From the NCBI GenBank assembly GCA_020161795.1, contig JAIUOR010000043.1:1-35035 (forward strand): a DNA stretch of 35,035 nucleotides. Direction: 5' to 3'. The notes below the pieces were generated by a model. The model worked only from the letters and a program-made list of their open reading frames with translations, had not been told where the DNA came from and made no database searches. Position 1 is the first letter of the stretch; each line of letters opens with the position of its first letter. Below are positions 3,360 to 22,608 of this stretch, piece after piece. The position numbers and the translations under genes were made by a program. Source of the stretch: Actinomycetota bacterium (GTDB lineage Bacteria > Actinomycetota > Actinomycetes > Propionibacteriales > Propionibacteriaceae).

Positions 3360-4783
3360 AGCACGGCTCCCGGGGTGTAGGCAGCGGCTTCGCGGTGCTC
3401 CCGGGCCAGTGCGGCGACGGTGGCGGCGATGGCGTCCACCTGGTCGCGGGCGGAGCCGGTGAGTTCCAGGGGATCGGACGCGGCCGCGCGCACCTGGGCG
3501 ATGTCGAGGTCGAGGCGTGGGTCGGCGGCGAGCCGTTCGAACAGGTCGTTCTCGGCGGCGCCCGCGCGCATGGCGAGGGCGACGGCGACGGCGTGCTCCT
3601 TGATCGCCTCGTGGGCGGCCTCGCGTCCGACGCCGTGGCGGACGGCGGCCATCAGCACCTTCGTGGTCGAGAGGAACGGCAGGTACCGCTGCAGTTCGGC
3701 CTCGATCACCGCGGGGAAGGCGCCGAACTCGCCGAGGACGGTGAGGAAGGTCTCGAACAGTCCGTCCAGGGCGTAGCAGGCGTCCGGCAGCGCGACCCGG
3801 CGCACCACCGACTCGAAGACGTCGCCCTCGTTCCACTGGGCGCCGGCCAGTTCCGCGCCCATGGACGCGTACCCGCGCAGCACCACCGCGAAGCCGTTCA
3901 CCCGCTCGCAGGAGCGGGTGTTCATCTTGTGCGGCATGGCGGACGAACCGACCTGGCCCTCGGCGAAGCCCTCGGTGACCAGTTCCTGTCCGGCCATCAG
4001 CCGGATGGTATGCGCCAGGCTGGACGGCCCCGCCGCCACCTGGACGAAGGCCGACAGCACCTCGTGGTCGAGGGAACGCGGGTAGATCTGCCCGGTCGCG
4101 ATGAAGGCGCTGGCGAAGCCGAGGTGCTCGGCGACCCGTGACTCGAGGGCAGCGAGCTTGGCGGTGTCGCCGCCGAGCAGGTCGAGCATGTCCTGGGCGG
4201 TGCCCATCGGGCCCTTGATGCCGCGCAGCGGATAGCGTCCGATCAGCTCGTCGACGCGGCGGTAGGCGACCAGCACCTCGTCCGCCGCGGTGGCAAATCG
4301 CTTGCCCAGGGTGGTGACCTGGCCGGGGACGTTGTGCGAACGTCCGGCCATGGGCAGCTCGCGGTACTCGACCGCCAGTCGAGCCAGGTTCACCAGCACG
4401 GTGACGATCCGCTCCCGGACCAGCTTCAGCGAGGCCAGGATCTGCTGCTGCTCGACGTTCTCGGTGAGATCGCGGGAGGTCATCCCCTTGTGGATGTGCT
4501 CGTACCCGGCGAGGTCGCAGAACTCCTCGATCCGGGCCTTCACGTCGTGCCGGGTGATCCGCTCGCGGGCGTTGATCGAGTCGAGATCGACCCGGTCGAT
4601 GACCCGTTCGTAGGCGGCAATGACCGCGTCCGGGTCGTCCCCGCCGAAGTCAACCCCCAGGTCGCGCTGCGCCTTCAGCACGGCGATCCACAGCTGCCGT
4701 TCGGCGACGATCTTGTGCTCGGGCGACCAGATCTCCCGCATCGCCGGCGAGGCGTACCGGGTGGCCAGGACATTGGGGATCAT
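3356..4783 (-). CDS. purB: adenylosuccinate lyase PurB
   Basis: Adenylosuccinate lyase releases fumarate from SAICAR and from adenylosuccinate, so it acts in both IMP and AMP synthesis. The 475-residue protein belongs to the fumarase/aspartase superfamily. The signature GSSAMPHKMNTR lies around residues 279-290 and contains the mobile catalytic serine loop; AGRSHNVPGQ and HKGMTSRDLTENVEQQ are the other conserved substrate-binding segments. The ATG at 4783 is preceded by GGAGGAG at good spacing, and its ATGA overlaps the purD stop. The C-terminal GAAENDLFERLAADPRL is as in actinobacterial PurB. The assignment is certain and the operon position fits. Confidence 0.96.
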   Translation of the reverse strand: MIPNVLATRYASPAMREIWSPEHKIVAERQLWIAVLKAQRDLGVDFGGDDPDAVIAAYERVIDRVDLDSINARERITRHDVKARIEEFCDLAGYEHIHKGMTSRDLTENVEQQQILASLKLVRERIVTVLVNLARLAVEYRELPMAGRSHNVPGQVTTLGKRFATAADEVLVAYRRVDELIGRYPLRGIKGPMGTAQDMLDLLGGDTAKLAALESRVAEHLGFASAFIATGQIYPRSLDHEVLSAFVQVAAGPSSLAHTIRLMAGQELVTEGFAEGQVGSSAMPHKMNTRSCERVNGFAVVLRGYASMGAELAGAQWNEGDVFESVVRRVALPDACYALDGLFETFLTVLGEFGAFPAVIEAELQRYLPFLSTTKVLMAAVRHGVGREAAHEAIKEHAVAVALAMRAGAAENDLFERLAADPRLDLDIAQVRAAASDPLELTGSARDQVDAIAATVAALAREHREAAAYTPGAVL

Positions 4784-6024
4784 CGGAGCTCCTCCGCTGC
4801 TTTCGCTGCGATGTCGGTGCGGTGGAAGCCGCCGTCGAAGTGAATGCCGGCGGCAGTGGCGTAGGCGGCCTCGCGGGCCTCGGCGAGGGTGTCGCCGGTT
4901 CCCACCGCGGCCAGGACGCGACCGCCGGCCGTCACCAGCCGGCCCTCGGCGTCCAGCGCGGTTCCCGCGTGGAAGACGGTGCCGGTCTCGGTGCCGGTGA
5001 TCGCATCGCCCTTGCGCGGGGTGTCGGGGTAGCCCCCTGCCGCCAGGACCACGGCCACGGCTGCGCCGCTCCCCCATTCCAGCGGCGGTTCGTCGGCCAG
5101 GCCTCCGGTGGCGGCGGCCAGGAGGACGCGGCCCAGCGGGGTGCGCAGCCGGGTCAGCAGGGGCTGGGTCTCCGGGTCACCGAAGCGGGCGTTGAACTCC
5201 ACCACCCGGGTTCCACGCGAGGTGAGCGCCAGGCCGGCATAGAGCAGGCCCACGAACGGGGTGCCGCGGCGGCGCAGCTCGTCGACGGTGGGCTGGATGA
5301 CGGTCGTGACCACCTCGTCCACCAGGCCGGGCGGCGCCCAGGGCAAGGGCGTGTAGGCGCCCATCCCGCCGGTGTTCGGGCCGGTGTCACCGTCGCCCAC
5401 CCGCTTGAAATCCTGGGCAGGCTCGAAGGGCAGTACGTGGGTGCCGTCCGAGAACGCGAACAGGCTGACCTCCGGGCCGTCGAGGAACTCCTCGATCACC
5501 ACCTGCCGGCAGCCGGCGGCATGCCGGATCGCGGCGTCGCGGTCGTCGGTGACGATCACGCCCTTGCCGGCCGCCAGCCCGTCGTCCTTCACCACGTAGG
5601 GCGGGCCGAAGAAGTCGAGTGCGGCGACCACCTCGTCCATCGAAAGACAGAGCCGGGCCGCCGCGGTCGGGACGCCGGCCGCCTCCATGATCTCCTTGGC
5701 GAAGGCCTTCGACCCCTCCAGCCGGGCCGCCGCGGCCGACGGCCCGAAGACCGGGATGCCCGCCGCGCGGACGGCATCTGCCACGCCGGCCACCAGCGGC
5801 GCCTCCGGGCCGATCACGACCAGCCCCGCGCCGAGGGCCCGGGCGAGCGCGGCGACCGCCTGACCGTCGAGCGGATCCACCGGGTGATTGGTCCCGACCT
5901 GCGCGGTACCGGGATTGCCCGGCGCGATGTGGACCGCGCCGACCTCCGGATCGCGGCCCAGCGCCCACGCCAGGGCGTGCTCGCGTCCGCCATTGCCCAC
6001 CACCAACACCACCAGTCCGGTCAC
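4780..6024 (-). CDS. purD: phosphoribosylamine-glycine ligase PurD
   Basis: GAR synthetase ligates glycine to phosphoribosylamine using ATP, step 2 of purine synthesis. The 414-residue ATP-grasp enzyme begins with the Rossmann-like VVLVVGNGGREHALAWAL. GSKAFAKEIMEAAGVPTA leads into the ATP-grasp domain, followed by YVVKDDGLAAGKGVIV, the VIEEFLDGPEVS strand, GPNTGGMGAYTP, and EFNARFGDPETQ with the metal ligands. The GTG at 6024 is chosen because the family starts there. The in-frame extension to 6111 is Gly/Ala-rich and unlike PurD. A TAGGAT hexamer 7 nt upstream suggests a leaderless mRNA. It heads the coupled purD-purB-purC unit. Confidence 0.96.
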   Translation of the reverse strand: MTGLVVLVVGNGGREHALAWALGRDPEVGAVHIAPGNPGTAQVGTNHPVDPLDGQAVAALARALGAGLVVIGPEAPLVAGVADAVRAAGIPVFGPSAAAARLEGSKAFAKEIMEAAGVPTAAARLCLSMDEVVAALDFFGPPYVVKDDGLAAGKGVIVTDDRDAAIRHAAGCRQVVIEEFLDGPEVSLFAFSDGTHVLPFEPAQDFKRVGDGDTGPNTGGMGAYTPLPWAPPGLVDEVVTTVIQPTVDELRRRGTPFVGLLYAGLALTSRGTRVVEFNARFGDPETQPLLTRLRTPLGRVLLAAATGGLADEPPLEWGSGAAVAVVLAAGGYPDTPRKGDAITGTETGTVFHAGTALDAEGRLVTAGGRVLAAVGTGDTLAEAREAAYATAAGIHFDGGFHRTDIAAKAAEELR

Positions 6025-6203: not shown

Positions 6204-8348
6204 TCAGACGGTGAGCGAATAGAGCCAGGCCAGCAGGTAGGTGCGGGTCATGCCGTCATCGACCACCGCGCCGTCGGCCAGGGCGAGCGCGCGGGCGGCG
6301 TCCTCGGGGCCGGCGAGGGCGGAGTACATCAGGATGTAGTCGCCAAAGGCCCGGTCGAAGCGGCCGCCGACCCCCTCGGCCACATTGGCCCGGATCCGTT
6401 CCGGATCACCGGCCAGGTAGGTCGAGGTCGGGCTCATCGGCAGCAGCAGGATGCCGAGCTTGGCCGCCGGCTCCGGGGAGAACCAGGTGGCGTAGTCCCG
6501 CTTGCCGCCCCAGTTCAGCACCGTGATCCCGTGGCCGTAGCCGGGGAACTGGCTCAGGTCGGGCTCCAGCCAGTAGGCGGCGCCGGAGTGCGCCTCCAGC
6601 GAGAGCATCCAGGCGGCGTGCGCCTCCAATGCCTGGTCGCCGATCGCCTGCGCCCACAGTTCCAGGCCGGCGTAGGCGTTCACCGCCTCGGAGACCGACT
6701 CCTGGTTGTTGCCGTCGGCGAACGGTGAGGTTCCCGACGCCCACGAATGCGATGCGTAGACGTCGAAGGCCCGCCGGTCGGGGAAGTGGCTCCCCCCAGC
6801 GCTACCGATGTCCGCGGCGAGCAGGTCGACGACCGGTGCATACCGCTCGACCACGGACGGATCGTGCTGCGCCATCACCGCCGCCGCGTACAGGAAGTAG
6901 CCGTAGTGGAAATGGTGGTCGTTGTACTCCTCGCTGCCGAAGGACGGCGTCAGCCCCACCACGCCCTTGCCCGCCGGGTCGTAGACGAAGCAGAACGCCT
7001 CCCGCTCGGCACAGCCCTGGGATTCGGTCCAGCGGGTCAGCGCCTCGTCCAGGACGGACGCCAGCCGCCCGGCCCGGTCGTCCAGCCCCAGTTGGTCGGC
7101 GACCATCAGCAGCATGGCCGTGCGCTGCAGCGCCTTGCCGCCGAAGTAGGTGTCGGCCGGCAGCTCGGGCAGCCCGGCCAGATCGGCATCCAACTGCTTG
7201 GTCAGTTCCGCCACCGCGGCCGTGTCCAGCCCGCTCAGCTCGAGCGCGGCCCGGGCCGGAGTGCGCGGAGTCCGCCAGGTGAGCTCCGGGCCGGCGCACA
7301 GTTCCAGCCTCCCGTAGATGGACGGGTAGCTGCCCAGGTCGCACACCTGATCGGAGGCCTGGTGCGGCAACCGGGCGATCGCGGTCTCACCGTCGGCGGC
7401 ATAGGCCAGGGTGGTGCTGACCTGATCCTCACCGACCTCGTACCGGACCTCGGAACCGGTCACCCGGTGGCGGGCGTCGCCGGCCAGTTCGGCGGGCTCG
7501 CGTCCCTCGGGCACTGGCCAGAACACCACCGAGCCCGCGGCCGCGACCTCGACCGAAGTCCCATCCAGGGTCGCGTCGGTGGTGGCCAGGGCGTAGCGGG
7601 CAGTGCCCAGCGTGGCGACGTACAGACCGTCGCCGGCCGGTTCGAAGCCCTCCGGGATCGTCAGGGTTGCGGCGCGGGCAGCCGACCAGGTGACGAACGG
7701 CGATCCCTGCGCGATCGTGGTCTGGCCGATCAGTGAGCCCTGCCCGTCCACCTGGTCGATCACCACCACGGACGGATCGTCGCTCGACACCAGCGCCCGC
7801 TCGGCTCCGACTCCCACCACCACGTCCGCGACGTACCCGCCGGCGATGGTGTCGGCCGTTGCGGTCACGACCGGCAGGCCGAGGCCGAACCCGTCCGGGG
7901 TCAGCGCGAAGCTGAGCGGCAGCGGGAACACCGGCTGCGGTTCATCGCCGAAGACCAGCCCCGAATACCACCGGTTGGTGGGCGGGGTCAGCCCAGCGGC
8001 CAGCCGGGTGGCCGGAAGCTCCTTGACCGTGCGCTGCGTGAGGCCGTCGACGAGCGGCCCGACGGTCTCGTCGCCCAGCACCGAGACCGCGGACGCCCGG
8101 CTCCCTCCCGGCAGCGGATGGCCAGGGCCGACGCAGCCGGTGACCAGCAGGCCCAGGAGGAGCGCAACCACCAGCCAGTGCCGGATCGGCGACCGGCGGG
8201 ACGGCCGGTTCCCACCCCGTCGACCACGACCAGCGCCACGCAATGGGGAGTGCCTGCCACCGGTTCCCCAACCGGGATCCCGCTGCCTGAGGTTCGGGCC
8301 TGCGCGGTCACGGGCTCGATACGCGGAATGAGGACGGAGGTGATTCAT
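6204..8348 (-). CDS. GH81 family endo-beta-1,3-glucanase lipoprotein
   Basis: This is a predicted surface-anchored glycoside hydrolase of family 81, a family of endo-beta-1,3-glucanases. The 714-residue product has a 57-residue Arg/Gly-rich N-terminus, one hydrophobic segment (about 57-71) and a lipobox VTGC with Cys72. The catalytic region carries family hallmarks: TNRWYSGL (124-131), PLSFALTPDGFGLGLP, the block YNDHHFHYGYF near residue 474, and NNQESVSEAVNAYAG near 546. The Asp of DHHFHYGY and the Glu of NQES are the acids usually assigned to GH81 catalysis. The ATG at 8348 overlaps the adaptor gene stop (ATGA). It is encoded with a glycosyltransferase, so a role in trimming or releasing the polymer made there is inferred. 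Pure nutrient degradation is the main alternative. Confidence 0.88.
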   Translation of the reverse strand: MNHLRPHSAYRARDRAGPNLRQRDPGWGTGGRHSPLRGAGRGRRGGNRPSRRSPIRHWLVVALLLGLLVTGCVGPGHPLPGGSRASAVSVLGDETVGPLVDGLTQRTVKELPATRLAAGLTPPTNRWYSGLVFGDEPQPVFPLPLSFALTPDGFGLGLPVVTATADTIAGGYVADVVVGVGAERALVSSDDPSVVVIDQVDGQGSLIGQTTIAQGSPFVTWSAARAATLTIPEGFEPAGDGLYVATLGTARYALATTDATLDGTSVEVAAAGSVVFWPVPEGREPAELAGDARHRVTGSEVRYEVGEDQVSTTLAYAADGETAIARLPHQASDQVCDLGSYPSIYGRLELCAGPELTWRTPRTPARAALELSGLDTAAVAELTKQLDADLAGLPELPADTYFGGKALQRTAMLLMVADQLGLDDRAGRLASVLDEALTRWTESQGCAEREAFCFVYDPAGKGVVGLTPSFGSEEYNDHHFHYGYFLYAAAVMAQHDPSVVERYAPVVDLLAADIGSAGGSHFPDRRAFDVYASHSWASGTSPFADGNNQESVSEAVNAYAGLELWAQAIGDQALEAHAAWMLSLEAHSGAAYWLEPDLSQFPGYGHGITVLNWGGKRDYATWFSPEPAAKLGILLLPMSPTSTYLAGDPERIRANVAEGVGGRFDRAFGDYILMYSALAGPEDAARALALADGAVVDDGMTRTYLLAWLYSLTV

Positions 8349-9079
8349 CGCAGTCCGATCTTGATGAGGAAGTCGGTGACCAGATCGCTCACCCCGGCCA
8401 ATGGGCCGGAGTCGACCAGGTCGACCGAGACGGTCACCGGGGCGCCGGGGTTGGTGAGCGATGCCGAAGCACCGACGAGTTCGGCCGAGGAGATCCGCAG
8501 CTTGCTGATCGTCCCGCTCTCGCCGGTCTCGGCGGTGATGGTCTCCACCGTGCCATCGAGGATCTCGCCGTCCGGCAGCAGGATCCTGGCGGCCGTGCCG
8601 GACACCACCCGCGCGTAGTCCCGCGGGAGTAGCCGGAAGGAGGCCGAGACCGATCGGTTGCCGGCCGCGGTGATCTCGGCCAGCCCGGCACCGGCCGGAA
8701 CCGAGTTGCCGACGCGCGCGTTCAACGCGCTGATCTCGCCGGCCACCACCGCGTAGTAGGTGATGGTGCCGCGCTTGGCGTCGATCGCGTAGGCGTCGGT
8801 GTCGTCGATCTCGAGACCGTTGGCCAGGTCCTCCTTGAGCTGCAGGCTCTGGACGGTGAACAGCCGCTGACCCGGCTGGACCTCCTCGCCCGGTTCGACG
8901 TACTGACCGATCACGGTGCCTGCGTGGTCGGCGCCGACGGTGTAGACGTCGGCGGTCACCTGGCCGGTGAAGCTGGTGATCCGGTTCTGGCGCTGGTTGA
9001 ACACCAGCGTGAGGGCGCCGACGAGCAGGACGACGCCGAGGACTCCGACGAACAGTCGCAGCCGGTTCTCCCAGGTCAT
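8345..9079 (-). CDS. membrane-anchored HlyD-like (barrel-sandwich) adaptor
   Basis: This 244-residue protein has one N-terminal membrane helix (about 8-27, VGVLGVVLLVGALTLVF) followed by an extracytoplasmic region. Two lipoyl/biotinyl-like half motifs are visible: VGADHAGTVIGQYVEPGEEV with QPGQRLFTV (48-76), and ITYYAVVAGEISALNARVGNSVPAGAGL (106-133). There is little sequence between them, so the long alpha-hairpin of true efflux adaptors is missing. A small beta region follows to the C-terminus. Adaptors of this shape accompany polysaccharide synthases such as those of the alginate (Alg44) type. It overlaps the glycosyltransferase stop upstream and the GH81 start downstream, each by 4 nt. 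It probably guides or couples the nascent glucan chain outside the membrane; this is inference. Confidence 0.75.
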   Translation of the reverse strand: MTWENRLRLFVGVLGVVLLVGALTLVFNQRQNRITSFTGQVTADVYTVGADHAGTVIGQYVEPGEEVQPGQRLFTVQSLQLKEDLANGLEIDDTDAYAIDAKRGTITYYAVVAGEISALNARVGNSVPAGAGLAEITAAGNRSVSASFRLLPRDYARVVSGTAARILLPDGEILDGTVETITAETGESGTISKLRISSAELVGASASLTNPGAPVTVSVDLVDSGPLAGVSDLVTDFLIKIGLR

Positions 9080-10818
9080 GACGGGTCTCCAATCAGTTGG
9101 GCAGCCGAGCGGGAAGCCAGGCTGCCGGCCACGGCGGGGACGAGATCGCGGGCGCGCTCGCGCACCACCTGGTCCAGCGGCGGTTCGATGACCGCCGGTT
9201 CCGCCTCAGGGGGCTCGGGCGATGCGGATGCCGTCCGTCCCTCACGAAGCGCCACCAGCAGAAGGACGCCGAGAGCCACGGTGTTGGTCAGGTTCCAGCC
9301 GGTGGCCAACGAGAGCTGGGCGTTGTTCAGGTCACGCCAGATCGCCACCACCGAGGTCAGCGCCAGGAACACGAACAGGTACACCTGGGGCCGGATGAAG
9401 TTGAACGGCGAGGTCCGGGTGCCCTGGGCTCCGGTGACGTGCCACTTCTGCTCCTTGCCCGAGAACGCGTTGATCAGCGCCTGGTGGTAGATCGGGAAGG
9501 AGGCGGTCGCCAGCATCAGCACCTCCCAGCGGAACGAGCCGAGGGTGTAGAAGGCCAGCAGGATCTGCATGAAGTAGAACCCGGCGTAGAACAGCAGCCA
9601 GCTGGCGAAGGTCGTCCCCAGCACCACCGGACGCAGGTCGAAGTAGATCTCCAGCGCCGGCACCAGCAGCAGCAACCCCGGGGCGATCCCGGTGAGGTAG
9701 TGGGTGGCGGTGACGAAGTACATCAGCCGCTGGTCGAGGGTGAGCGGGTGCTTGGGGTTCAGCGGGTTGTGGGTGAACAGGATCTCGAAGCCACCGGTCG
9801 CCCAGCGCAACTGCTGCTTGGTGTAGCCCTCAATCGTCTCCGGGGCGTCGCCCACGGCCAGCACGTCGGGGATGTAGATGCTGCGCCAGCCGCGCTCGTG
9901 CAGCATCAGGGAGGTCCACACGTCCTCGGACTTGGAGTCGGTGTAGATCCCGCCCACGTCGTCGATCGCGGCCCGCCGGAACACCACATTGGTGCCGACG
10001 CAGAAGGCGGCGTTGAAGTGGTTCCGTCCGGGCTGGACGAACTTGTAGAAGACGGTCTGCATGTAGCCCGCGCCGCGGGCGATCAGGCTGTGCAGGTTGC
10101 CGTAGCTCTGCGGGGTCTGGACGAAGGCGACGTTCGGGTCGATGAAGAAGGGAAGCGTCTGGTACAGGAACTCCGGCTCCGGCACGAAGTCGGCGTCGAA
10201 GATGCAGAAGTAGTCGCTCTTGACGACGCTCAGCGCGTGGTTGACATTGCCGGCCTTGGCGCCGCCGGAGGAGAGCCGGCGGATGTACTGGACGCCGATC
10301 CCGGCGGCCATCTCGCGCACCTCGTCGGAGCGGCCGTCGTCCAGGATCCACGTGGTGTGCTCGCCCCACAGGTCGCGGGCGGCGACGGCGGTGCGGCGGA
10401 TCACCTCGAGCGGCTCGCCGTAGCAGGTGATGAAGACGGCCACGCTGGCCGACCCGCCGTCCAGCCGCAGCGGCCAGTCGGGCTGCGGGCGGTGGCCGGC
10501 GGTCGGGGTGTGCTCCCCGAACAGCGAGCGCTGCGCGGCGTAGTAGGCCTCGTCGCGCGGCGACTTGGCGCCGGCCAGGATCGTCCACATCGCCAGCAGG
10601 GCGTGGACGATCAGGATCGCCTCGGCTCCGATCACCAGGACGTAGGGCAGCCAGTCACCCCGGTTGGCCGGGTTCAGTAGGAAGGTGGCGTAGGCGATGA
10701 TGCCGAGGGTCGCGATCAGCGACAACAGCACCATGACCGGTGAGTAGGGATTACGGGTGAGTTCTCGTCGGCGATCCGGGCTGGAACCGTCGACCTGGGC
10801 CAGATCATGGACTGGCAT
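9076..10818 (-). CDS. processive family 2 glycosyltransferase (cellulose/curdlan synthase-like)
   Basis: This is a predicted membrane-embedded polysaccharide synthase that polymerises a nucleotide sugar and exports the chain. The 580-residue protein has two N-terminal helices (about 27-48 and 56-82), then a GT2 domain with the processive signature: DDG (160-162), DAD (208-210), SED (297-299, in place of TED) and QQLRW (335-339). AFCVGTN (271-277) replaces the FFCGS-like acceptor motif. About five more helices follow between 365 and 525, then an acidic/Pro-rich 50-residue tail. No PilZ domain is present, unlike BcsA. The ATG at 10818 has GAGGAGA upstream; the frame stays open to 11175 but shows no family similarity there. 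It is the first gene of the three-gene glucan operon. The beta-1,3 linkage is inferred only from the GH81 partner. Confidence 0.88.
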   Translation of the reverse strand: MPVHDLAQVDGSSPDRRRELTRNPYSPVMVLLSLIATLGIIAYATFLLNPANRGDWLPYVLVIGAEAILIVHALLAMWTILAGAKSPRDEAYYAAQRSLFGEHTPTAGHRPQPDWPLRLDGGSASVAVFITCYGEPLEVIRRTAVAARDLWGEHTTWILDDGRSDEVREMAAGIGVQYIRRLSSGGAKAGNVNHALSVVKSDYFCIFDADFVPEPEFLYQTLPFFIDPNVAFVQTPQSYGNLHSLIARGAGYMQTVFYKFVQPGRNHFNAAFCVGTNVVFRRAAIDDVGGIYTDSKSEDVWTSLMLHERGWRSIYIPDVLAVGDAPETIEGYTKQQLRWATGGFEILFTHNPLNPKHPLTLDQRLMYFVTATHYLTGIAPGLLLLVPALEIYFDLRPVVLGTTFASWLLFYAGFYFMQILLAFYTLGSFRWEVLMLATASFPIYHQALINAFSGKEQKWHVTGAQGTRTSPFNFIRPQVYLFVFLALTSVVAIWRDLNNAQLSLATGWNLTNTVALGVLLLVALREGRTASASPEPPEAEPAVIEPPLDQVVRERARDLVPAVAGSLASRSAAQLIGDPS

Positions 10819-11261: not shown

Positions 11262-12050
11262 ATGCCCGACGCTGTGCTGGAAGACCGGCTACTACCCCAC
11301 GAACGACACCTGCGCATTCTCGAGCAGGCCCGGAGCCGATCCAAAGTCGAGGTCTCCGCGCTGGCCGAGGAACTCGAGGTGACCACCGAGACGATCCGGC
11401 GCGACCTGGCGATCCTCGAACGGCAGGGCCAGTTGCGCCGCGTCCATGGCGGGGCGGTGCACGTGCAGCGGCTGGGCTACGAGCCTTCGGTCGACACCCG
11501 CCGCGGTCAGCACGCCGCCCAGAAGTCACGGATCGGTCGCGCGGCCCGGGAGTTCCTGCCCGACGGCGGCTCGATCCTGATCGACGGCGGCACCACCACC
11601 CTCGAACTGGTTCGCCACCTTCCCTCCGACGCGCGGATCACCGCCATCACCAACTCGCTGCAGGCCGCGACGCTGCTGGCCGAACTCCCCCAGGTGGAAC
11701 TGCTGCTGCTCGGTGGCCGGCTGCGCGAGGTGACGGGCGCCGCGGTCGGCCCCTGGCCGGTCTCCGCGCTGGCCGAGTTGCGGGTGGACGTGGCCTTCAT
11801 GGGCACCAACGGCATCACCCCGGAGACCGGCCTCACCACCCCCGATCAGGCCGAGGCCGAAGTGAAGCGGGCGATGGTCGCGGCGGCCGGACGGGTGGTC
11901 TGCCTGGCGGACCACACCAAGGTCGGCCTCACCCAGCTGTGCCGTTTCGCCCGGCTGGGCGAAATCGACGCTATCGTCACCGACACCGGCCTCGAGGACA
12001 GCCTGGCCGACGAGTTGGCCACCGCCGGACCGGAGGTAATCCGAGCATGA
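11262..12050 (+). CDS. DeoR/GlpR family transcriptional regulator (FruR-like)
   Basis: This is a sugar-phosphate-responsive repressor. The 262-residue protein has an N-terminal winged helix (HERHLRILEQARSRSKVEVSALAEELEVTTETIRRDLAILERQGQLRRVHGGAV, about 10-65) containing the DeoR signature. A C-terminal ribose-phosphate-isomerase-like sensor domain follows, with DGGTTTLELV, ITNSLQ, LGGRLREVTG, GTNGITPETGLTTPDQAEAEVKRAM and DHTKVG. It is immediately followed by a PfkB kinase in a 4-nt ATGA overlap, the usual actinobacterial fruR-fruK pair, so fructose-1-phosphate is the likely effector. The ATG at 11262 is chosen because it follows a -10 hexamer by 6 nt. An earlier frame start at 11223 encodes a Cys/Leu-rich stub that would lie upstream of transcription. 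Confidence 0.88.
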   Translation: MPDAVLEDRLLPHERHLRILEQARSRSKVEVSALAEELEVTTETIRRDLAILERQGQLRRVHGGAVHVQRLGYEPSVDTRRGQHAAQKSRIGRAAREFLPDGGSILIDGGTTTLELVRHLPSDARITAITNSLQAATLLAELPQVELLLLGGRLREVTGAAVGPWPVSALAELRVDVAFMGTNGITPETGLTTPDQAEAEVKRAMVAAAGRVVCLADHTKVGLTQLCRFARLGEIDAIVTDTGLEDSLADELATAGPEVIRA

Positions 12051-12991
12051 TCGTCACCCTCACCCCCAATCCCAGCGTCGACCGGACGGTCACCATCGCC
12101 GCCTTCGAGCGCGGCGGCATCATGCGCGCCTTCGAGACCCGGGAGGATCCGGGCGGCAAGGGGCTCAACGTCAGCCGGGCGCTGGCGCTGCACGGCACTC
12201 CGACCACCGCCGTCCTGCCGGTCGGGGGCCTCTACGGACGGCTGATGCTCGACCTGCTGGCCCCGCTCGAGGTCGAGGTGCGGCCGGTCCGCATCGGAGC
12301 CGCCATCCGCGCCAACATCGCGATCGTGGAGCCGGACGGCACCACCAGCAAGGTCAACGAACAGGGCCCGCTCCTCTCCCCCGCCGAACTGGCCGAGTTG
12401 CGTGCCACCGTCCGCGTGGCCAGCGCCGACGCCGGCTGGGTGGTGTGCTGCGGCTCGCTGCCGCCGGAGGTGCCCGACGACTTCTACGCCGAGCTGGTTC
12501 GCAATTGCCGCGCGGACGGGCTCAAGGTCGCGGTGGACTCCTCCGGCGCGCCGCTGATCGCCGCCCTCGCGGCCCATCCCGACCTCATCAAGCCCAATCG
12601 GGTCGAACTCGCCGAGGCGGTCGGACGAGAGTTGCCCACGGTGGGCGCGGTGGTGACCGCCGCGCAGGAACTGGTCGCCCAGGGTGTCGGCGCGGTGGTG
12701 ATCAGCCTCGGACGCGACGGGGCGCTGCTCGTCGACGCCGACCAGGTCATCCAGGCCACGGCGCACGTCACCCATCCGGTGTCCACCGTGGGGGCGGGCG
12801 ATTCCCTGCTGGCCGGCTACCTGCACGCGATCTCCACCGGGGCCGACGGCGCGACGGCGCTGCGCACGGCCGTCGCCTTCGGTGCCGCCGCGGTCGCCCT
12901 ACCGGGTAGCGAGATGCCAGGCCCCGAGCAGGTGGCGGCCGCCTCCGTCCGGTTCGTCGAGCCCGACCCGGATCGCCCCCTGGACGACTGA
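12047..12991 (+). CDS. fruK: 1-phosphofructokinase family hexose kinase (PfkB)
   Basis: This is predicted to phosphorylate fructose-1-phosphate (or tagatose-6-phosphate) to the bisphosphate using ATP. The 314-residue PfkB-family protein starts MIVTLTPNPSVDRTV and carries REDPGGKGLNVSRALALHG (substrate-binding GGKG), VDSSGAPL, KPNRVELAEAVG and the C-terminal signature THPVSTVGAGDSLLAGYLHA with the catalytic Asp in GAGD. GGAGG lies about 10 nt before the ATG, which overlaps the regulator stop. The fructose PTS gene (fruA) that commonly follows is absent; instead a convergent aldolase ends 5 nt away. The product would be a substrate of that aldolase. The fruK assignment is probable; tagatose-6-phosphate kinase is the alternative. 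Confidence 0.85.
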   Translation: MIVTLTPNPSVDRTVTIAAFERGGIMRAFETREDPGGKGLNVSRALALHGTPTTAVLPVGGLYGRLMLDLLAPLEVEVRPVRIGAAIRANIAIVEPDGTTSKVNEQGPLLSPAELAELRATVRVASADAGWVVCCGSLPPEVPDDFYAELVRNCRADGLKVAVDSSGAPLIAALAAHPDLIKPNRVELAEAVGRELPTVGAVVTAAQELVAQGVGAVVISLGRDGALLVDADQVIQATAHVTHPVSTVGAGDSLLAGYLHAISTGADGATALRTAVAFGAAAVALPGSEMPGPEQVAAASVRFVEPDPDRPLDD

Positions 12992-12996
12992 TCGGC

Positions 12997-13917
12997 TCAG
13001 TAGTCGAGCACCTCGGCGGCCGTCCAGCTCGGCGCGCGCAGGCCCGCCGGCCGATAGCCGTAATGCTGCGCTCCGCCGGCCGAGCCGCATACCTCGGCCT
13101 TGTGCCGGACCACCTGCCGCATCGCGTCCAGCGCGGGTGGGTAGATGTCGTGGGGTTCTCGCTGCTTCGGATCGGTGAGCACCTCGCGGAGCGCGACGAA
13201 GTAGGCCGACTTCATGTCTGCCGAGATGTTCACCTTCGCGATGCCGCGCCGCACCGCCTCCGACACTTCGGCATCACGGGCGCCCGATCCCCCGTGGAGC
13301 ACGAGCGGCACGTCGACCGCCTCCCGGATCTGCGACACCAGGTCGAGCTTGAGCTCGGGCTCCACGCCCGGAGGGTAGACCCCGTGCGCCGTTCCCACCG
13401 CGATCGCGAGGTAGTCGACATCGGTGGCGGCCACGAACGCCGCCGCCTCCTCGGGAGTGGTGTAGGAGAAGTCCTTCATCTCCGCGGCGCTCTTGGGGTC
13501 GCGCGGGCCGATGGTCCCGATCTCCGCCTCGACCGAGACCCCGACGCTGTGGGCAGCCTCCACCACCTTGCGCGTCAGCGCCACGTTCTGCTCGTACGGA
13601 AGGAGCGAGCCGTCGATCATGACCGACGAGAACCCGAGCCGGATGGCGCCCACCACCTGGGCGAAGGTCGAGCCGTGATCGAGTTGGATGGCGACCGGCA
13701 CCGAGGCTCCCGCCGCGAGTTCGCGCGCGGACGACAGGAACGCGTCCCCCACCAGCGCCCACTCGGCGGGGTGGATGGAGACGATCACGGGTGATTCGGC
13801 GGCCTCACACTCGGCCACCAGGGCGGCGAGCATGCCGTAATCGGAGATATTGAAGGCCGGAACCGCGAACCCGTGCCGGTAGGCCGTCCCGACGACCTCG
13901 GCGCCACTCATCAACAT
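12997..13917 (-). CDS. class II ketose-bisphosphate aldolase (copy 1)
   Basis: This is a zinc-dependent aldolase that splits fructose- or tagatose-bisphosphate, or a related ketose phosphate, into dihydroxyacetone phosphate and an aldehyde. The 306-residue protein shows FAVPAFNISDYGMLAALV, the catalytic QLDHGS (Asp, then zinc His), GFSSVMIDGS, EAEIGTIG, GTAHGVYPPG and LHGGSGA (zinc His residues), and KVNISADMKSA. It resembles the KbaY/GatY-like class IIA form. The ATG at 13917 follows GAGAGG by about 9 nt. It is the last gene of the binding protein-permease-permease unit, 40 nt after the second permease gene, and convergent with fruK. The true substrate cannot be settled from sequence. Confidence 0.87.
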   Translation of the reverse strand: MLMSGAEVVGTAYRHGFAVPAFNISDYGMLAALVAECEAAESPVIVSIHPAEWALVGDAFLSSARELAAGASVPVAIQLDHGSTFAQVVGAIRLGFSSVMIDGSLLPYEQNVALTRKVVEAAHSVGVSVEAEIGTIGPRDPKSAAEMKDFSYTTPEEAAAFVAATDVDYLAIAVGTAHGVYPPGVEPELKLDLVSQIREAVDVPLVLHGGSGARDAEVSEAVRRGIAKVNISADMKSAYFVALREVLTDPKQREPHDIYPPALDAMRQVVRHKAEVCGSAGGAQHYGYRPAGLRAPSWTAAEVLDY

Positions 13918-13957
13918 GAAAATGTACCTCTCGCTACGCTAACAACAACGGAATCCA

Positions 13958-14815
13958 TCAACTCTTCACCGCGCCGGCGGTCATACCACTCACGAACTGC
14001 CGCTGGAAGAGGAGGAACAGGATCAGCACGGGAATACTGCCCAGCACGCTCATCGCCATCATTTCGCTCCATTCGAAGGAATGCTCGCCCATGAGCAACT
14101 GGATTCCAACGGGAACAGTTCGGTTCGCTCGATTCTGCGTCAGCGTGAGCGCAAAGAGATATTCGTTCCAGGCCACCATGAAGGTGTAGGCGCCGACCGA
14201 GACTATGCCCGGGCGAGCCACCGGTACCAACACCTGCCAGAGGGCGCGGAAACTGCCGCCGCCGTCGATCTCCACCGCTTCGTCGAGCTCACGGGGAATG
14301 GTGTTGAAGTAGCCGGTCATCATCAGGATCGCGTAGGGAATCGTCGCCACCATGTAGGTGAACACCAGCGCCCACAGCGTGTCGTAGAGCCGCAGCCAGA
14401 CCACCAGGCCGAAGTACGGGATCAGCAGCGTGATGGGTGGCACCGCCTGGATGGAGATGATGACCGCGTTCAGGGAGCGCTTGAACGGGAAGTCGAACCG
14501 GCTGAGCGCGAAACCCGCCATGATGCCCGCGAAGAGGGTGAGCAGCACCACGCCGCCGGCGACAACGTAGCTGTTGATGAAGAAGCGCACCTTGCCGGGA
14601 TCGGTGAGGATCTTCACGTAGGCGTCCAGCGTGAACGTCTCCGGAATGAAGGTCGGCGGGTAGGCGAAGATCTCCGTGTTCGGCTTGAACGAGTTGATGA
14701 GCATCCACAGCGCGGGCCCACCGGCGAACAGCGCGCCCGCCGTCAGCCCGAGCAACAGCCCGATCCGCAGAAGGAGGCGTCGCCGAGGAACGTTCTGACT
14801 GACCTGGAGTGTCAT
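13958..14815 (-). CDS. carbohydrate ABC transporter permease (MalG family)
   Basis: This is the second membrane subunit of an ABC sugar importer. The 285-residue protein has six predicted helices, beginning LLLRIGLLLGLTAGALFAGGPALWMLINSF. The EAA loop RELDEAVEIDGGGSFRALWQ contacts the ATPase. The periplasmic FAYPPTFIPETFTLDAY segment and the C-terminal LFLLFQRQFVSGMTAGAVKS are typical of MalG/CUT1 permeases. The ATG at 14815 lies one nucleotide after the upstream permease stop and has GAAGGGA before it. An alternative ATG at 14845 would overlap the upstream gene. No ATPase is encoded in the cluster, so a shared MsmX-like ATPase elsewhere is expected. Confidence 0.9.
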   Translation of the reverse strand: MTLQVSQNVPRRRLLLRIGLLLGLTAGALFAGGPALWMLINSFKPNTEIFAYPPTFIPETFTLDAYVKILTDPGKVRFFINSYVVAGGVVLLTLFAGIMAGFALSRFDFPFKRSLNAVIISIQAVPPITLLIPYFGLVVWLRLYDTLWALVFTYMVATIPYAILMMTGYFNTIPRELDEAVEIDGGGSFRALWQVLVPVARPGIVSVGAYTFMVAWNEYLFALTLTQNRANRTVPVGIQLLMGEHSFEWSEMMAMSVLGSIPVLILFLLFQRQFVSGMTAGAVKS

Positions 14816-14816
14816 G

Positions 14817-15758
14817 TCAATCCCTTCCCTTCTGCTGGCGGACATAGGCCAGGGCCACGATCATCGAGACGACGAACAGCACCACGCCGCTCGCCGCGGC
14901 CACCGAGAACTGGTGCTTGGAGAACGCGAGTTTGTAGGTGTAGGTCGCGATGGTCTCGGTTGCGTTCAGCGGCCCACCGCCGGTTGCCAGCCAGACGATG
15001 GAGAAATGCTGGATGTTCCAGATGAAATCCAGCATGGCCATGGCGACGATAATGGGCTTGAGTTGCGGAAGGGTGATGTGGAAGAACCGATTCCAGGGGC
15101 CGGCTCCGTCTATCTGAGCCGCCTCGTACAGCTCACCGGGAATGCCCTGGAGGCCCGCCAGCAGGCTCACCATGAAGAACGGATAGCCAGCCCACACATT
15201 GATGAAGATCACCGTGAACAACGCCAGGCTGGGATTCGAGAACCATTCGACGCGGTCACCGAGGATATTGAATGTCCGCAGCAGATAGTTGACCACGCCG
15301 CTGGGGTTCAGCAACAACTGCCAGAGGATCACGACGATGGAGGCGGTGAACACCCAGGGCACGATGAACGCCGCCCGGAAGAGAGCCGAAAGCCAGCGCG
15401 GGACGAGGCCGCTGTTCAGCATCAACGCGAAGACCATGCCGAGAATCAGATGGAAGGCCACCGAGGCCACCGTGAAGATCAGCGTGTTGCCGATCGCCTT
15501 GCGGAACACCGGGTCCGACAACAGCTGAACGAAGTTGTCCAGGCCGACGAACTCCGAATCCTTCACCATCACGACGTTGCTGAGCATCGAGTAGATGAAG
15601 ACCATGACGACCGGGGTCGCCATCATCACCGCCATCACCAGGATGGTCGGGGACATGTACGAGTAGGCAGCCAGGTTGCCTCTGAGCCGGGGCGACAGCC
15701 GTCGCTTCGGCTTGTTCGGCGCGAGCTCTGCACTCGGGCGAGCGTTGCTTACTTGCAT
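14817..15758 (-). CDS. carbohydrate ABC transporter permease (MalF family)
   Basis: This is the first membrane subunit of the same CUT1-type sugar importer. The 313-residue protein has a basic N-terminal tail (about 30 residues), six predicted helices starting SYMSPTILVMAVMMATPVVMVFIYSML, and the EAA loop GELYEAAQIDGAGPWNRFFHITLP. The ATG at 15758 has GAGG at good spacing. It is preceded by a 92-nt gap containing a perfect 13-bp stem-loop that separates it from the binding-protein gene. The partner permease follows after 1 nt. Substrate specificity is not determined by the permeases. Confidence 0.9.
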   Translation of the reverse strand: MQVSNARPSAELAPNKPKRRLSPRLRGNLAAYSYMSPTILVMAVMMATPVVMVFIYSMLSNVVMVKDSEFVGLDNFVQLLSDPVFRKAIGNTLIFTVASVAFHLILGMVFALMLNSGLVPRWLSALFRAAFIVPWVFTASIVVILWQLLLNPSGVVNYLLRTFNILGDRVEWFSNPSLALFTVIFINVWAGYPFFMVSLLAGLQGIPGELYEAAQIDGAGPWNRFFHITLPQLKPIIVAMAMLDFIWNIQHFSIVWLATGGGPLNATETIATYTYKLAFSKHQFSVAAASGVVLFVVSMIVALAYVRQQKGRD

Positions 15759-15796
15759 CGGAGCCTCACAGGTGGCCGGTCACTTTGGAAGAGCCA

Positions 15797-15830
15797 GCCG
15801 TGGCGCGGCATCCAGGCGCCGCGCCACGGC
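15797..15830. terminator. strong intergenic stem-loop in the ABC operon
   Basis: GCCGTGGCGCGGC (15797-15809) and GCCGCGCCACGGC (15818-15830) form a perfect 13-bp GC-rich stem with an 8-nt loop, placed between the binding-protein stop and the first permease start. There is no T-run, so a partial terminator or a 3' mRNA stabiliser that leaves the binding protein more abundant than the permeases is more likely than complete termination. Confidence 0.75.
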
Positions 15831-15850
15831 AGACTCGTACTATCGATCAA

Positions 15851-17140
15851 TCACCCAAGCACGCCGGACCAGTACTCCTGGAGCGATGCCTGCGTCTGCT
15901 CCACTGTGGCCTCACCCTGGAGCAGCCGCACCAGGTTCTCATTGAGGTTCCGGTTCAGATCGAGCGCCTGCGGAAGGCCCTCGAGTTCGGTGACGAACTC
16001 GCTCTCCTGGTACACCTTGAAGGCCAGTTCGTACAGCGGATCGCCGTCGACGTACCCCGGAACCGAGTCCACACTGCCCGGGAAGCCGGTCGCCGCGGTC
16101 GCCAGTTCGGAGTTGATGTCGGTCGACATGACGTACTGGATCAGCTTCCAGGCCTCGGCCTTGTGCTCGCTGTTCTCGGCGATGCCCATGCCCCAGCTGG
16201 CGCCGGCGAGGCCGCGCTTGCCGGTGAACCCGTCCTCGGTCGGAACGAAGCCGATCGTGAAGTTGAGGTCGGGGTTCGACTCGCGGATCCCACCGATGTG
16301 GGCCAGCGAACCGTTCATCATGGCGTTCCGGCCGGCCGTGAACTCCTCGACCTTCTGCTGCTCGGCCTGCGTGAACGCGCCGGGCGTGATGAAGCCGCCG
16401 TCGTACTGCGCCTTCAGGAACTCAAGCCACTTGGCGATCTCCGGGGTCTGGAAGTTGGGCTTGCGGTCCTTCAGGAACCGGCCGCCCGACGCCCACAGCC
16501 AGGCCTGCGAATCGAATCCCGCCGGGGACTGGACGTTGATCGGCAGCGACCAGGCGAAGATGTTCTTGTCCGGGTCGGTGACCGCCTTGGCCGCGGCCTC
16601 GAACTCCGACCGGGTGTCCGGCAGTTCCGTGACTCCCGCGGCGTTCAGCAGATCGCTGTTGTAGTACATGGGGTAGGCGAAGTTGAGCGCCCGCACCATG
16701 TAGGTCGCTCCGTCGATCTGGTCATTGCTGACCAGCTGGGCCGGGTCGAAGCCCGCATCGTCCATGAGGGTGCTCAGGTTGGTGATCGCCCCCTGGGTCT
16801 TCAGGTCGTAGACGCTGGCGCCGTTGATCGCGACGATGTCGGCGAGCGTGCCCGCGGCCGCCGCAGCGGTCTGCAGATCGACGGTGGCCGAGTAGGGGTT
16901 GGAGATCAGGTTGACCTTGATCCCGGGGTTCGCCTCCTCGAAGCGATCCATCAGCCCCCGCATCATGCCCGGGGGCAGTTCCACCTCCCACCACTGGCTG
17001 AAGTCGAGCGTGATCTCCTCGCCTCCGCCCGGGGTCTGACCCGGGGTGCTGGCGTCCCCGCCGGAGCCGGACGAGCAACCCGCCAAAGCGAGGGTTGCCG
17101 CCAGCCCGAAAGCGGCGACTTTGGCAAGCATGCGCTGCAT
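15851..17140 (-). CDS. extracellular solute-binding lipoprotein of sugar ABC importer
   Basis: This lipid-anchored family 1 binding protein delivers a sugar to the permeases encoded downstream. The 429-residue precursor has a signal peptide MQRMLAKVAAFGLAATLALAGC with lipobox LAGC (Cys22), then a Gly/Ser/Thr linker. The mature part shows ITLDFSQWWEVELPPGMMRGLMDRFEEANPGIKVNL, a typical start of CUT1 binding proteins, and later GASWGMGIAENSEHKAEAWKLIQYVMS, the usual C-lobe helix. The ATG at 17140 is preceded by GAGGAGGAG. It is first in the operon, downstream of a large palindromic operator candidate. The ligand is unknown; the gene context favours a monosaccharide or polyol. Confidence 0.92.
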   Translation of the reverse strand: MQRMLAKVAAFGLAATLALAGCSSGSGGDASTPGQTPGGGEEITLDFSQWWEVELPPGMMRGLMDRFEEANPGIKVNLISNPYSATVDLQTAAAAAGTLADIVAINGASVYDLKTQGAITNLSTLMDDAGFDPAQLVSNDQIDGATYMVRALNFAYPMYYNSDLLNAAGVTELPDTRSEFEAAAKAVTDPDKNIFAWSLPINVQSPAGFDSQAWLWASGGRFLKDRKPNFQTPEIAKWLEFLKAQYDGGFITPGAFTQAEQQKVEEFTAGRNAMMNGSLAHIGGIRESNPDLNFTIGFVPTEDGFTGKRGLAGASWGMGIAENSEHKAEAWKLIQYVMSTDINSELATAATGFPGSVDSVPGYVDGDPLYELAFKVYQESEFVTELEGLPQALDLNRNLNENLVRLLQGEATVEQTQASLQEYWSGVLG

Positions 17141-17227
17141 GATTCATCTCCTCCTCGAGAACGGAAAGCCGTGTCATCGCGCAAGCATCTGAGCCCACGA
17201 GATCCGATCCATGGCCTGTTCAGACCC

Positions 17228-17273
17228 TATACGATAGATAACGAAAGCGGCAAGCTTCGTATCCATATCGTTA
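17228..17273. promoter_or_regulatory. operator-like palindrome upstream of the sugar ABC operon
   Basis: The left arm TATACGATAGATAACGAA (17228-17245) and the reverse complement of the right arm (17256-17273), TAACGATATGGATACGAA, match closely with two one-base shifts. Each arm thus holds two ACGA half-sites, and the centre is AGCGGCAAGC. It lies about 90 nt upstream of the binding-protein ATG in an AT-rich island. The DeoR-family protein encoded next to it is the natural candidate to bind; this is inference. Confidence 0.6.
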
Positions 17274-17495
17274 CGGGATGCTCGGGGACGCAGCCGGACA
17301 GCCGGCCCCGGCCCGTCGATGGCGTCCGGAGAAGCGCCGGCCGGACCCACGTAGACCAGCCGTCACATCCCCACGTTGAGCCGGCACTACACCTCGCTCG
17401 GATTGCCTGCCCACAAGGAACCCCGGCCGTCACCCGAAGCCGGCCTGATCGCGGAACCGATCCGCCCACGGACAACGAGGAACCGGGCTTGGAGG

Positions 17496-17518
17496 CCTCG
17501 AGCCGATCGGACTCGAGG
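17496..17518 (-). terminator. possible terminator after the second DeoR gene
   Basis: CCTCGAG and CTCGAGG form a perfect 7-bp stem with a 9-nt loop, 8 nt after the DeoR stop at 17526. No T-run follows. The rest of the 385-nt gap between the DeoR gene and the binding-protein gene (17141-17525) holds the palindrome at 17228-17273 and no recognisable gene. Confidence 0.4.
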
Positions 17519-17525
17519 GCGGCGC

Positions 17526-18302
17526 TCAGACGACGATGAGCTCGGCGCCGGTGGCGCGGATGGCCGCGCGGAGTTCCTCGGGCATGCCGTCGTCGGTGAC
17601 AACCGTGTTGAAGTCCGCGACGTTCATGACCTTGTGCCGGTCGTAGCTCGCCCACTTCGAGGAATCCGCGAGCAGCACCCGGCGGCGGGCCACCGCGGCG
17701 AGCGTCCGCTTGGATTCCGCGATGTCCAGCGATCCCTCGACGACGTCCTGATCGGAGTCGATGGCACCGGCCCCGAGGAAGGCAACGTGCCCGATCTCCC
17801 CCTCGATCCCCTGCTGGCGCGGCGACCCGACCGTCGCCATGATGCGGGAGACCGTGCGCCCCCCGAGAAGACGCACCTGTATGCCGTCGACATCCATCAG
17901 CGCGAGGGCGATGTTGATGCCGGGGGTGAACACCACGAGGTCGTTGCTGGCGGACAGCAGACGCGCCAGTTCGAAGACCGTCGAGCCCGAATCCAGAACC
18001 ACCGTCATCCCGTCGGTGACCATCCTGGCCGCTGCCGCGGCGATGCGCTGCTTCGCCTCCACGTTCTGGCTCGACCGGGCGTCGAATCCCATGAGCGGCG
18101 TCTCGGACATCGTCACCCCGCCGTGCACCCGGGCGACCCGGCCCTGCTTCTCCAGAGCGTCGAAGTCCCCCCGGATCGTCACGTCGGAGACCCCGAGCAT
18201 GGCCGCCAGATCGCGGGTGAGCACCGTGCCTTGCTCGAAGACCGCCGTCAGGATGGCGGCACGACGCTGGGATGCATGCACGCCCGACATGCTACTCAAC
18301 AT
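17526..18302 (-). CDS. DeoR/GlpR family transcriptional regulator
   Basis: This is a predicted repressor of the neighbouring sugar genes, sensing a phosphorylated sugar. The 258-residue protein has an N-terminal winged helix (RRAAILTAVFEQGTVLTRDLAAMLGVSDVTIRGDFDALEKQGRVARVHGG) and a C-terminal sensor domain with LDSGSTVFELARLL, FTPGINIA, LGGRTVSRIM, FLGAGAIDSDQDVVEGSLDIAESKRTLAAVA and ADSSKWASYDRHKV. The ATG at 18302 follows AGGCGGG; an internal ATG four codons later is possible. It lies between the FGGY kinase (113 nt upstream) and the binding-protein operon (385 nt downstream), all on the minus strand. It is clearly distinct from the FruR-like protein at 11262. Its ligand is unknown. Confidence 0.88.
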   Translation of the reverse strand: MLSSMSGVHASQRRAAILTAVFEQGTVLTRDLAAMLGVSDVTIRGDFDALEKQGRVARVHGGVTMSETPLMGFDARSSQNVEAKQRIAAAAARMVTDGMTVVLDSGSTVFELARLLSASNDLVVFTPGINIALALMDVDGIQVRLLGGRTVSRIMATVGSPRQQGIEGEIGHVAFLGAGAIDSDQDVVEGSLDIAESKRTLAAVARRRVLLADSSKWASYDRHKVMNVADFNTVVTDDGMPEELRAAIRATGAELIVV

Positions 18303-18415
18303 GACCCGCCTGGTGCGGAAGATATGCGCGCCGATTACGCAGGATGCTCACTTCCGCTCGCGCCCGGGACCGGGCCGGAAGGCCTGGACGATCCGCTGCC
18401 GGACGGACAGGAGTC

Positions 18416-19852: not shown

Positions 19853-19982
19853 GGCAGTTAAACGAAATGAAACCAAACCCATTACCATGCATTCTGTTAT
19901 GATACCTCACGTGCGTCGGCCATACACCAGGGCCAGGGAGGGCGCCTGCCTTCACCCGCACCAGTACCAGAAAGGCAGCCTC
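19853..19982. promoter_or_regulatory. divergent promoter region, FGGY kinase / aldolase
   Basis: This AT-rich 130-nt spacer separates divergent genes. On the plus strand TGTTATGAT (19895-19903) is a good extended -10 for the aldolase gene, giving a leader of about 70 nt. TTAAACGAAATGAAACC (19858-19874), close to the kinase start, repeats an ACGAAA step also seen in the palindrome at 17228-17273 and may be a second site for the same DeoR regulator. No clear -35 is seen. Confidence 0.5.
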
Positions 19983-20987: not shown

Positions 20988-21040
20988 GTCGCCCACCGCG
21001 ACAGGCACCCCGCCACCGGCGTGATGGTCGGGCTGAGCGC

Positions 21041-21080
21041 CAGGAGGCCCCGTCACCGCGATCGGTGGCGGGGCCTCCTG
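21041..21080. terminator. bidirectional terminator between aldolase and MDR dehydrogenase genes
   Basis: CAGGAGGCCCCGTCACC (21041-21057) pairs with GGTGGCGGGGCCTCCTG (21064-21080) over 17 bp with one wobble pair and a 6-nt loop. It sits between two convergent genes, where a shared terminator is expected. There is little T-tract, as is common at high GC. Confidence 0.8.
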
Positions 21081-21091
21081 CCTCCCACTGG

Positions 21092-22135: not shown

Positions 22136-22136
22136 C

Positions 22137-22580: not shown

Positions 22581-22608
22581 CTGTGTTCTCCGTTCTGGGT
22601 CAGTCACG

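Follow-up and report, generated by a model that had tools for sequence, protein, structure and literature searches.

Three kinds of described systems stand closest to the locus analyzed here. The crdASC genes of Agrobacterium and the bgsBA genes of rhizobia each encode a GT2 synthase and a HlyD-type partner, the former for curdlan and the latter for a mixed-linkage (1,3;1,4)-beta-glucan, and the Bcs and clostridial Ccs systems combine a GT2 core with a cognate glycosidase in the operon, BcsZ or CcsZ (PMC7710045; papers are cited by PMC number, in each case for the excerpts available to us). CcsZ is a precedent for reading the polymer from the cognate hydrolase (PMC7710045). The window, which is the whole stretch of 35,035 nucleotides analyzed (contig JAIUOR010000043.1, from an actinobacterium of the family Propionibacteriaceae), carries at positions 6204 to 10818 a unit of three genes, for a GT2 synthase, a HlyD-type adaptor and a GH81 enzyme. 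This unit is likely an actinobacterial system, complete in itself, that makes a curdlan-like beta-1,3-glucan, with a synthase of separate descent and a cognate glucanase; we infer the identity of the polymer and its 1,3 linkage. A GT2-adaptor-GH81 operon is not described in the titles or abstract openings returned by full-text literature searches.

The three genes are consecutive open reading frames on the minus strand, and the features of the unit are the following.

9076..10818, minus strand: GT2 processive-type synthase, 580 amino acids, BcsA-like core, PilZ not found
10186..10344, minus strand: donor-side motif stretch of the synthase, LDDG, AKAGN and FDADF
9802..9816, minus strand: QQLRW acceptor motif of the synthase
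9430..9444, minus strand: WHVTG gating-loop motif of the synthase, residues 459-463, in place of FxVTxK
9076..9079, minus strand: GT2/adaptor junction, ATGA, 4-nucleotide overlap, read from the letters
8345..9079, minus strand: HlyD/membrane-fusion-type adaptor, 244 amino acids (Pfam, AlphaFold model, Foldseek)
8345..8348, minus strand: adaptor/GH81 junction, ATGA, 4-nucleotide overlap, read from the letters
6204..8348, minus strand: GH81 endo-beta-1,3-glucanase-type enzyme, 714 amino acids counted from the overlapping ATG, with lipobox
8133-8150, minus strand: lipobox LLVTGC of the GH81 protein, residues 67-72
6900..6923, minus strand: NDHHFHYG, catalytic-acid motif with D477
6687..6713, minus strand: GNNQESVSE, catalytic-base region with E550 and E554

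An earlier note, made from the letters of this stretch, had described a three-gene operon joined by 4-nucleotide overlaps, and both ATGA junctions are present. The adaptor/GH81 overlap is the less certain of the two, because the overlapping ATG places about 55 mostly Arg-rich residues ahead of the hydrophobic signal and lipobox, and because the gene caller favored a later GH81 start, at 8171. In a relative of the same genus (L033; L and G numbers are our handles for loci and genomes) the GH81 signal peptide starts exactly at this overlap. Under a rough automatic choice of starts, the exact overlap is found in 40 of 54 relatives at the GT2/adaptor junction and in 22 of 48 at the adaptor/GH81 junction. 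At E 1e-5, a single GT2 place is found in the genome of the window, which also has a single GH81.

The association of the three genes extends well beyond the window, as the earlier note had proposed to check across actinobacteria. Among 147 sampled genomes of the window's family, the window included, 39 match the GT2 at E 1e-60; 38 of these matches are orthologues (56-100% identity) and one is a paralogue (G114, 36%). Samples of the order and the class yield further orthologues in other families, and a phylum-wide sample of 246 genomes holds no orthologue at E 1e-100 apart from the window, so that the distribution of the system is patchy. Neighborhoods were read in a set of 55 further orthologue-bearing genomes, to which G315, G323 and G325 do not belong. 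With G078 (GT2 running into the contig end) left out of the counts, the adaptor and then the GH81 gene follow the GT2 gene in 55 of 55 usable loci (54 genomes, one twice). A scan of named genomes gave 297 GT2 relatives. The best 80 of these 297 comprise 77 plain triples, two Demequina loci with the order GT2-adaptor-GT2-adaptor-GH81, and one locus at a contig edge, so the unit is present in 79; they come from Microbacterium, Curtobacterium, Frigoribacterium, Demequina, Cellulomonas, Cellulosimicrobium, Oerskovia, Cryobacterium, Microlunatus and other genera, and include one metagenome-assembled genome labelled Acidobacteria. The two sets share some genomes (e.g. L163/G135). Paralogues were set aside at 34-39% identity (G114, G413, G396, G348, G197 and G213) and, in Cellulomonas, at 30-37% (G706 and G720).

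The GT2 and the GH81 also occur together at the level of whole genomes. All 38 GT2-bearing genomes of the family have a GH81, versus 1 of the 109 others, and in that one (G100) the GH81 match begins at base 14 of its contig. Among 81 Cellulomonas genomes, a GH81 is present in 51 of 51 with a GT2 orthologue and in 4 of 30 without. The corresponding Fisher p values (1.7e-34 for the family, 2.4e-17 for Cellulomonas) are indicative only, as they ignore kinship and species are not independent. Across 48 rows, the pairwise distances in GT2, adaptor and GH81 are correlated with one another (r 0.74-0.84). At L218 (G770), L224 (G742), L048, L053, L055 and L063 the GT2 or GH81 gene has a stop or frame break or runs into a contig end, for which either decay or assembly error may account.

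Copy number varies around this plan. A tandem GT2-adaptor copy precedes a single GH81 in L119 and L137 (Demequina) and in L221 (Cellulomonas, G760), which suggests that each GT2 is paired in function with its adaptor and that one hydrolase may serve two synthases. The Cellulomonas genome G703 has two full GT2-adaptor-GH81 units far apart (L219, L220). At least 9 of the 51 operon-bearing Cellulomonas genomes (drafts may hide more) have another GH81 domain some 2.7 kb away from the GH81 of the operon. At L240-L242 this second, larger GH81 is the next gene after the operon and is followed by a LacI-like regulator on the other strand, as judged by eye; the one such protein scanned has fn3 and CBM6 domains.

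GH81 enzymes are usually secreted and degradative, and members of the family act on consecutive 1,3 links. The window enzyme exceeds the Pfam cut-off for Glyco_hydro81C (197.1 versus 25.6 bits, E 6.4e-58) and matches solved GH81 enzymes (6fop, E 2.4e-57). The N-terminal model of the family stays below threshold in this protein (14.6 versus 25.6 bits); that model, PF03639, has no match in the window's own genome or in the controls, a result of little weight since PF17652 finds the gene there. An aspartate and two glutamates are kept that align to the catalytic residues of BH0236. From the residue roles in that enzyme, we take D477 to be the catalytic acid and E550 and E554 to belong to the catalytic-base region. 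The aspartate is present in 49 of 49 proteins (window included) and in 93 of 93 readable loci, and E550 in 49 of 49 and in 90 of 91 readable loci; the motif table leaves out L031, L048, L053, L059, L066 and L093 (at most 550 residues as automatically read) and L069. The enzyme thus has the C-terminal catalytic domain and the conserved D/E/E of BH0236 and 6fop, and differs from them in having a lipobox and in being encoded with a synthase. On account of the lipobox it is probably a lipoprotein, in line with the earlier note. Most of 49 GH81 N-termini inspected by eye have a lipobox and others a membrane-type helix, so tethering recurs.

The synthase exceeds the cut-offs of several Pfam GT2 models and of Cellulose_synt. 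Its motifs LDDG, AKAGN, DAD, QTPQ, SED and QQLRW give the D, D, D, QxxRW signature of processive beta-glycan synthases, the type to which the earlier note had assigned it, and Q..RW is kept in 54 of 54 relatives. The homology and the motifs are observed directly; substrate and linkage are presumptive. No PilZ domain was found in it by the Pfam scan, and CrdS, too, is described as being without PilZ (PMC6821405). The FxVTxK gating motif, given as fully conserved in BcsA, CrdS and BgsA (PMC6821405), occurs in none of 54 orthologues, of which 53 have W.(V/A)TG and one (L054) has WTSTG; it is present in all 20 non-orthologue rows of the second alignment. The second tree and alignment do not include the GH26-linked GT2, the Enterococcus GT2, L079 and L099. 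All four are in the first tree, where FxVTxK is seen in the Enterococcus GT2 and in L079, and the remaining pair is not resolved by the pattern. Because the gating loop is altered and PilZ was not found, control of the synthase is, to judge from the sequence, probably not by the PilZ/cyclic di-GMP gating of BcsA. In a model of L061 the helix lengths fit two N-terminal and several C-terminal membrane helices around the GT domain. This model was made from a read-through open reading frame, used only to fold GT2 and adaptor together (predicted template modeling score, pTM, 0.67), and no contact was inferred from it. That frame is not taken for a natural fusion: its joining stretch is rich in Arg and Pro and resembles an out-of-frame tail, and the genes are separate in L060, a relative of L061.

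The adaptor has the barrel-sandwich of HlyD/membrane fusion proteins (HlyD_3, 42.3 bits versus a cut-off of 22.2). Its AlphaFold model (mean predicted local distance difference test score 87, pTM 0.67) has a beta-rich body between one N-terminal membrane-type helix and a C-terminal helix, without a long alpha-hairpin, and its Foldseek matches are the periplasmic adaptors ZneB, EmrA, MacA, BesA and MexA. These results bear out the single-pass adaptor first proposed. In the CrdS reference locus (L237) the protein at the CrdA position is barely above the HlyD_3 cut-off (24.3 versus 22.2 bits), and the BgsB-type protein is clearly above it. Because both are HlyD_3 proteins, GT2 plus a HlyD-type adaptor appears to be the common plan. 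The suggestion that CrdA- and CrdC-type partners are lacking here needs correcting as to CrdA. For CrdC it agrees with the operon, which shows no counterpart of the CrdC-position protein (no search for CrdC was made elsewhere in the genome), and neither BcsB nor CcsB is among the three genes in the Pfam scan. The window adaptor profile matches the BgsB-type protein over about its first 93 residues (93 columns; probability 92.9, E 3.7e-7) and leaves the remainder unmatched; it has no direct match to the CrdA-position protein, nor does the adaptor match the CrdC-position protein.

The unit departs from each described system at several points. Compared with crdASC, its adaptor is shorter (244 versus 484 amino acids for the CrdA-position protein), its third gene is a GH81, its gating motif is WxVTG and its GT2 lies outside the CrdS clade. 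We take L225 and L226 to be BgsA from their place on pSymB and their HlyD-GT2 plan, the label being absent from their records. In L226 the adaptor gene comes first, the adaptor has 410 amino acids and no GH81 is annotated beside the synthase, and the window GT2 falls outside the BgsA clade. Unlike Bcs and Ccs, the unit has a GH81 and not a GH8 or GH5. Its distinguishing features would be the GH81 and a short, hairpin-less adaptor that, by its model, seems suited to a cell without an outer membrane. A row of GH8, HlyD adaptor and GT2 genes, the same plan with another hydrolase, is present on two alphaproteobacterial plasmids (L234, 379-4626; L238, 1275-5644). A Sinorhizobium plasmid cluster (L231, 3740-7198) has GT2, GH26 and DUF995 genes, again a case of a synthase whose neighboring hydrolase belongs to another family.

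Phylogenetic reconstruction from 35 rows places 15 orthologues in one clade (100/100), whose sister group (99/96) consists of actinobacterial BcsA-like proteins without assigned products; the tree is midpoint-rooted and has long branches. The CrdS reference is encoded on an Agrobacterium plasmid, and W344, F262, W422 and W521, the residues given for AtumCrdS (PMC6821405), all fit it; the gene upstream has 1455 base pairs, compared with 1458 reported for crdA (PMC10819609). The window GT2 and CrdS are 24.7% identical. Approximately unbiased (AU) tests reject a single clade of the window GT2 group with CrdS (p 1.03e-5), with BgsA (p 5.0e-5) and with BcsA (p 2.1e-4). The tree placement asked for in the earlier note thus puts the synthase in no clade of known other product.

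A link to a reported polymer is provided by Cellulomonas. The triple is present in Cellulomonas flavigena, C. fimi and C. gilvus, with both 4-nucleotide overlaps in the C. flavigena gene calls, and in all eleven Cellulomonas loci read, among them L221 with its tandem pair and L224 with the GT2 in two frames. C. flavigena is reported as a curdlan producer (PMC3544764, PMC3035266), with abundant polymer, and small amounts are reported from C. fimi and other species (PMC3544764); C. gelida is reported to make none (PMC3035266). Cellulomonas curdlan is the subject of a patent from 1990 and of papers from 2002-2011 (cited in PMC3544764 and PMC10819609). As to its genes, the two genome papers, in the excerpts available, name no more than two weak CrdS homologues or the 15-23 GT2s of each genome. 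Aniline blue by itself is ill suited as a test for this polymer, because native C. flavigena curdlan is reported to remain unstained until alkali treatment (PMC10819609).

The presence of a second GT2 in these species raises the question of which synthase makes the curdlan. Each sequenced cellulomonad is stated to have two GT2s with 35-39% identity to CrdS (PMC3544764), and the two best GT2 genes per genome, the window type and a second one (L214-L216), sit, by an estimate from gene order, where the two gene numbers per species in that paper would fall. It is quite unlikely that the second GT2 makes the curdlan and the window-type unit another beta-glucan. In the midpoint-rooted tree the second GT2 does fall on the side of CrdS, BgsA and BcsA (99/96; joining it with the window clade gives AU p 0.017), yet no adaptor and no GH81 adjoin it in 3 of 3 loci read, and the window-type unit has both wherever there is room. 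Its neighbors in C. flavigena are STAS (Pfam), HATPase and SpoIIE/MASE1 genes, and in C. fimi and C. gilvus it is also beside a STAS protein, as judged by eye; perhaps this reflects partner-switching control of a polysaccharide synthase.

A mixed-linkage (1,3;1,4)-beta-glucan like that of rhizobial BgsBA, of which the GH81 would cut only the stretches of 1,3 links, is an unlikely product. The adaptor profile, which matches the N-terminal part of the BgsB type and not the CrdA-position protein directly, speaks for it, as does the occurrence of a GH8 hydrolase gene with some of the HlyD-GT2 pairs on alphaproteobacterial plasmids. Against this, one clade with BgsA is rejected, and the hydrolase of the unit is a GH81 and not the GH8 that accompanies BgsA-like synthases in two clusters. 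It is very improbable that the product is a 1,4-glucan like cellulose, or another beta-glycan, with the GH81 serving another purpose such as attack on fungal walls or feeding, although the nearest solved structures are cellulose synthases (E 9.4e-50) and the sister clade consists of BcsA-like proteins. The synthase misses the cut-off of the CelA equivalog widely (241.7 versus 699.1 bits), GH81 is seldom found in genomes without the GT2, and the near-perfect GH81-GT2 linkage and the membrane tether favor a role of the enzyme within the synthase unit.

Several observations weigh against a curdlan-like product and a cognate glucanase. As far as found in the literature, a product is reported for no member of the GT2 clade, and the window GT2 is, by its sequence, outside the CrdS clade, on whose side the second cellulomonad GT2 falls. 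Curdlan reportedly does not support growth of C. fimi or C. gilvus (PMC3544764), although each has two GH81 matches, and the four Cellulomonas genomes counted above have a GH81 without a window-type GT2. The GH81 of L166 is without the catalytic base residue, and the GH81 gene is in two frames in L048, L055 and L063 and cut by the contig end in L053.

If the unit does make a beta-1,3-glucan, the GT2 would polymerize glucose from UDP-glucose and thread the chain through its own membrane channel. The one-helix adaptor, predicted to have the HlyD fold, may sit where the channel opens to the outside, guiding or stabilizing the emerging chain; it would need no hairpin or porin because there is no outer membrane. 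The membrane-tethered GH81, assigned by family and catalytic residues, may trim, free or recycle the chain at the cell surface.

The genes around the operon were considered as parts of the system and ruled out. Homologues (E 1e-10) of the eight nearest flank genes lie within 6 genes of the operon in only 11 of 55 loci, mostly as single genes of large families, and L033 alone, from the same genus, shares two pur genes with the window flank. A sugar-use region (11262-24132) with a DeoR regulator, PfkB kinase, sugar-binding protein, FGGY kinase and phosphotransferase system genes adjoins the operon and recurs little next to it elsewhere. Immediately downstream is purD (4783-6024), within a run of apparent purine-synthesis genes, the others judged by eye.

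A wider proposal, to which we give about an even chance, is that actinobacterial beta-1,3-glucan synthesis evolved separately from CrdS, with a distinct GT2 clade, a rebuilt WxVTG loop and no PilZ, a hairpin-less adaptor and an obligate GH81; that the unit is the curdlan locus of Cellulomonas and is present, unnoticed, in Microbacterium, Curtobacterium, Demequina, Microlunatus and many others; and that the GH81 makes a permanent coat releasable or recyclable. The unit in the reported curdlan producer C. flavigena can be tested as a candidate for the genes of curdlan synthesis in Gram-positive bacteria and narrows the search in Cellulomonas to one operon with a matching hydrolase. The GH81 of the operon would also be a natural explanation of a possible re-use of the polymer by C. 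flavigena, which is called unclear in PMC3544764. If the proposal is true, a second lineage of GT2 synthases acquired 1,3-specific synthesis, so that the residues that determine linkage could be separated from ancestry, and beta-1,3-glucan coats would be predicted in many soil and plant actinobacteria, to judge from the 297 GT2 relatives, 80 of them examined.

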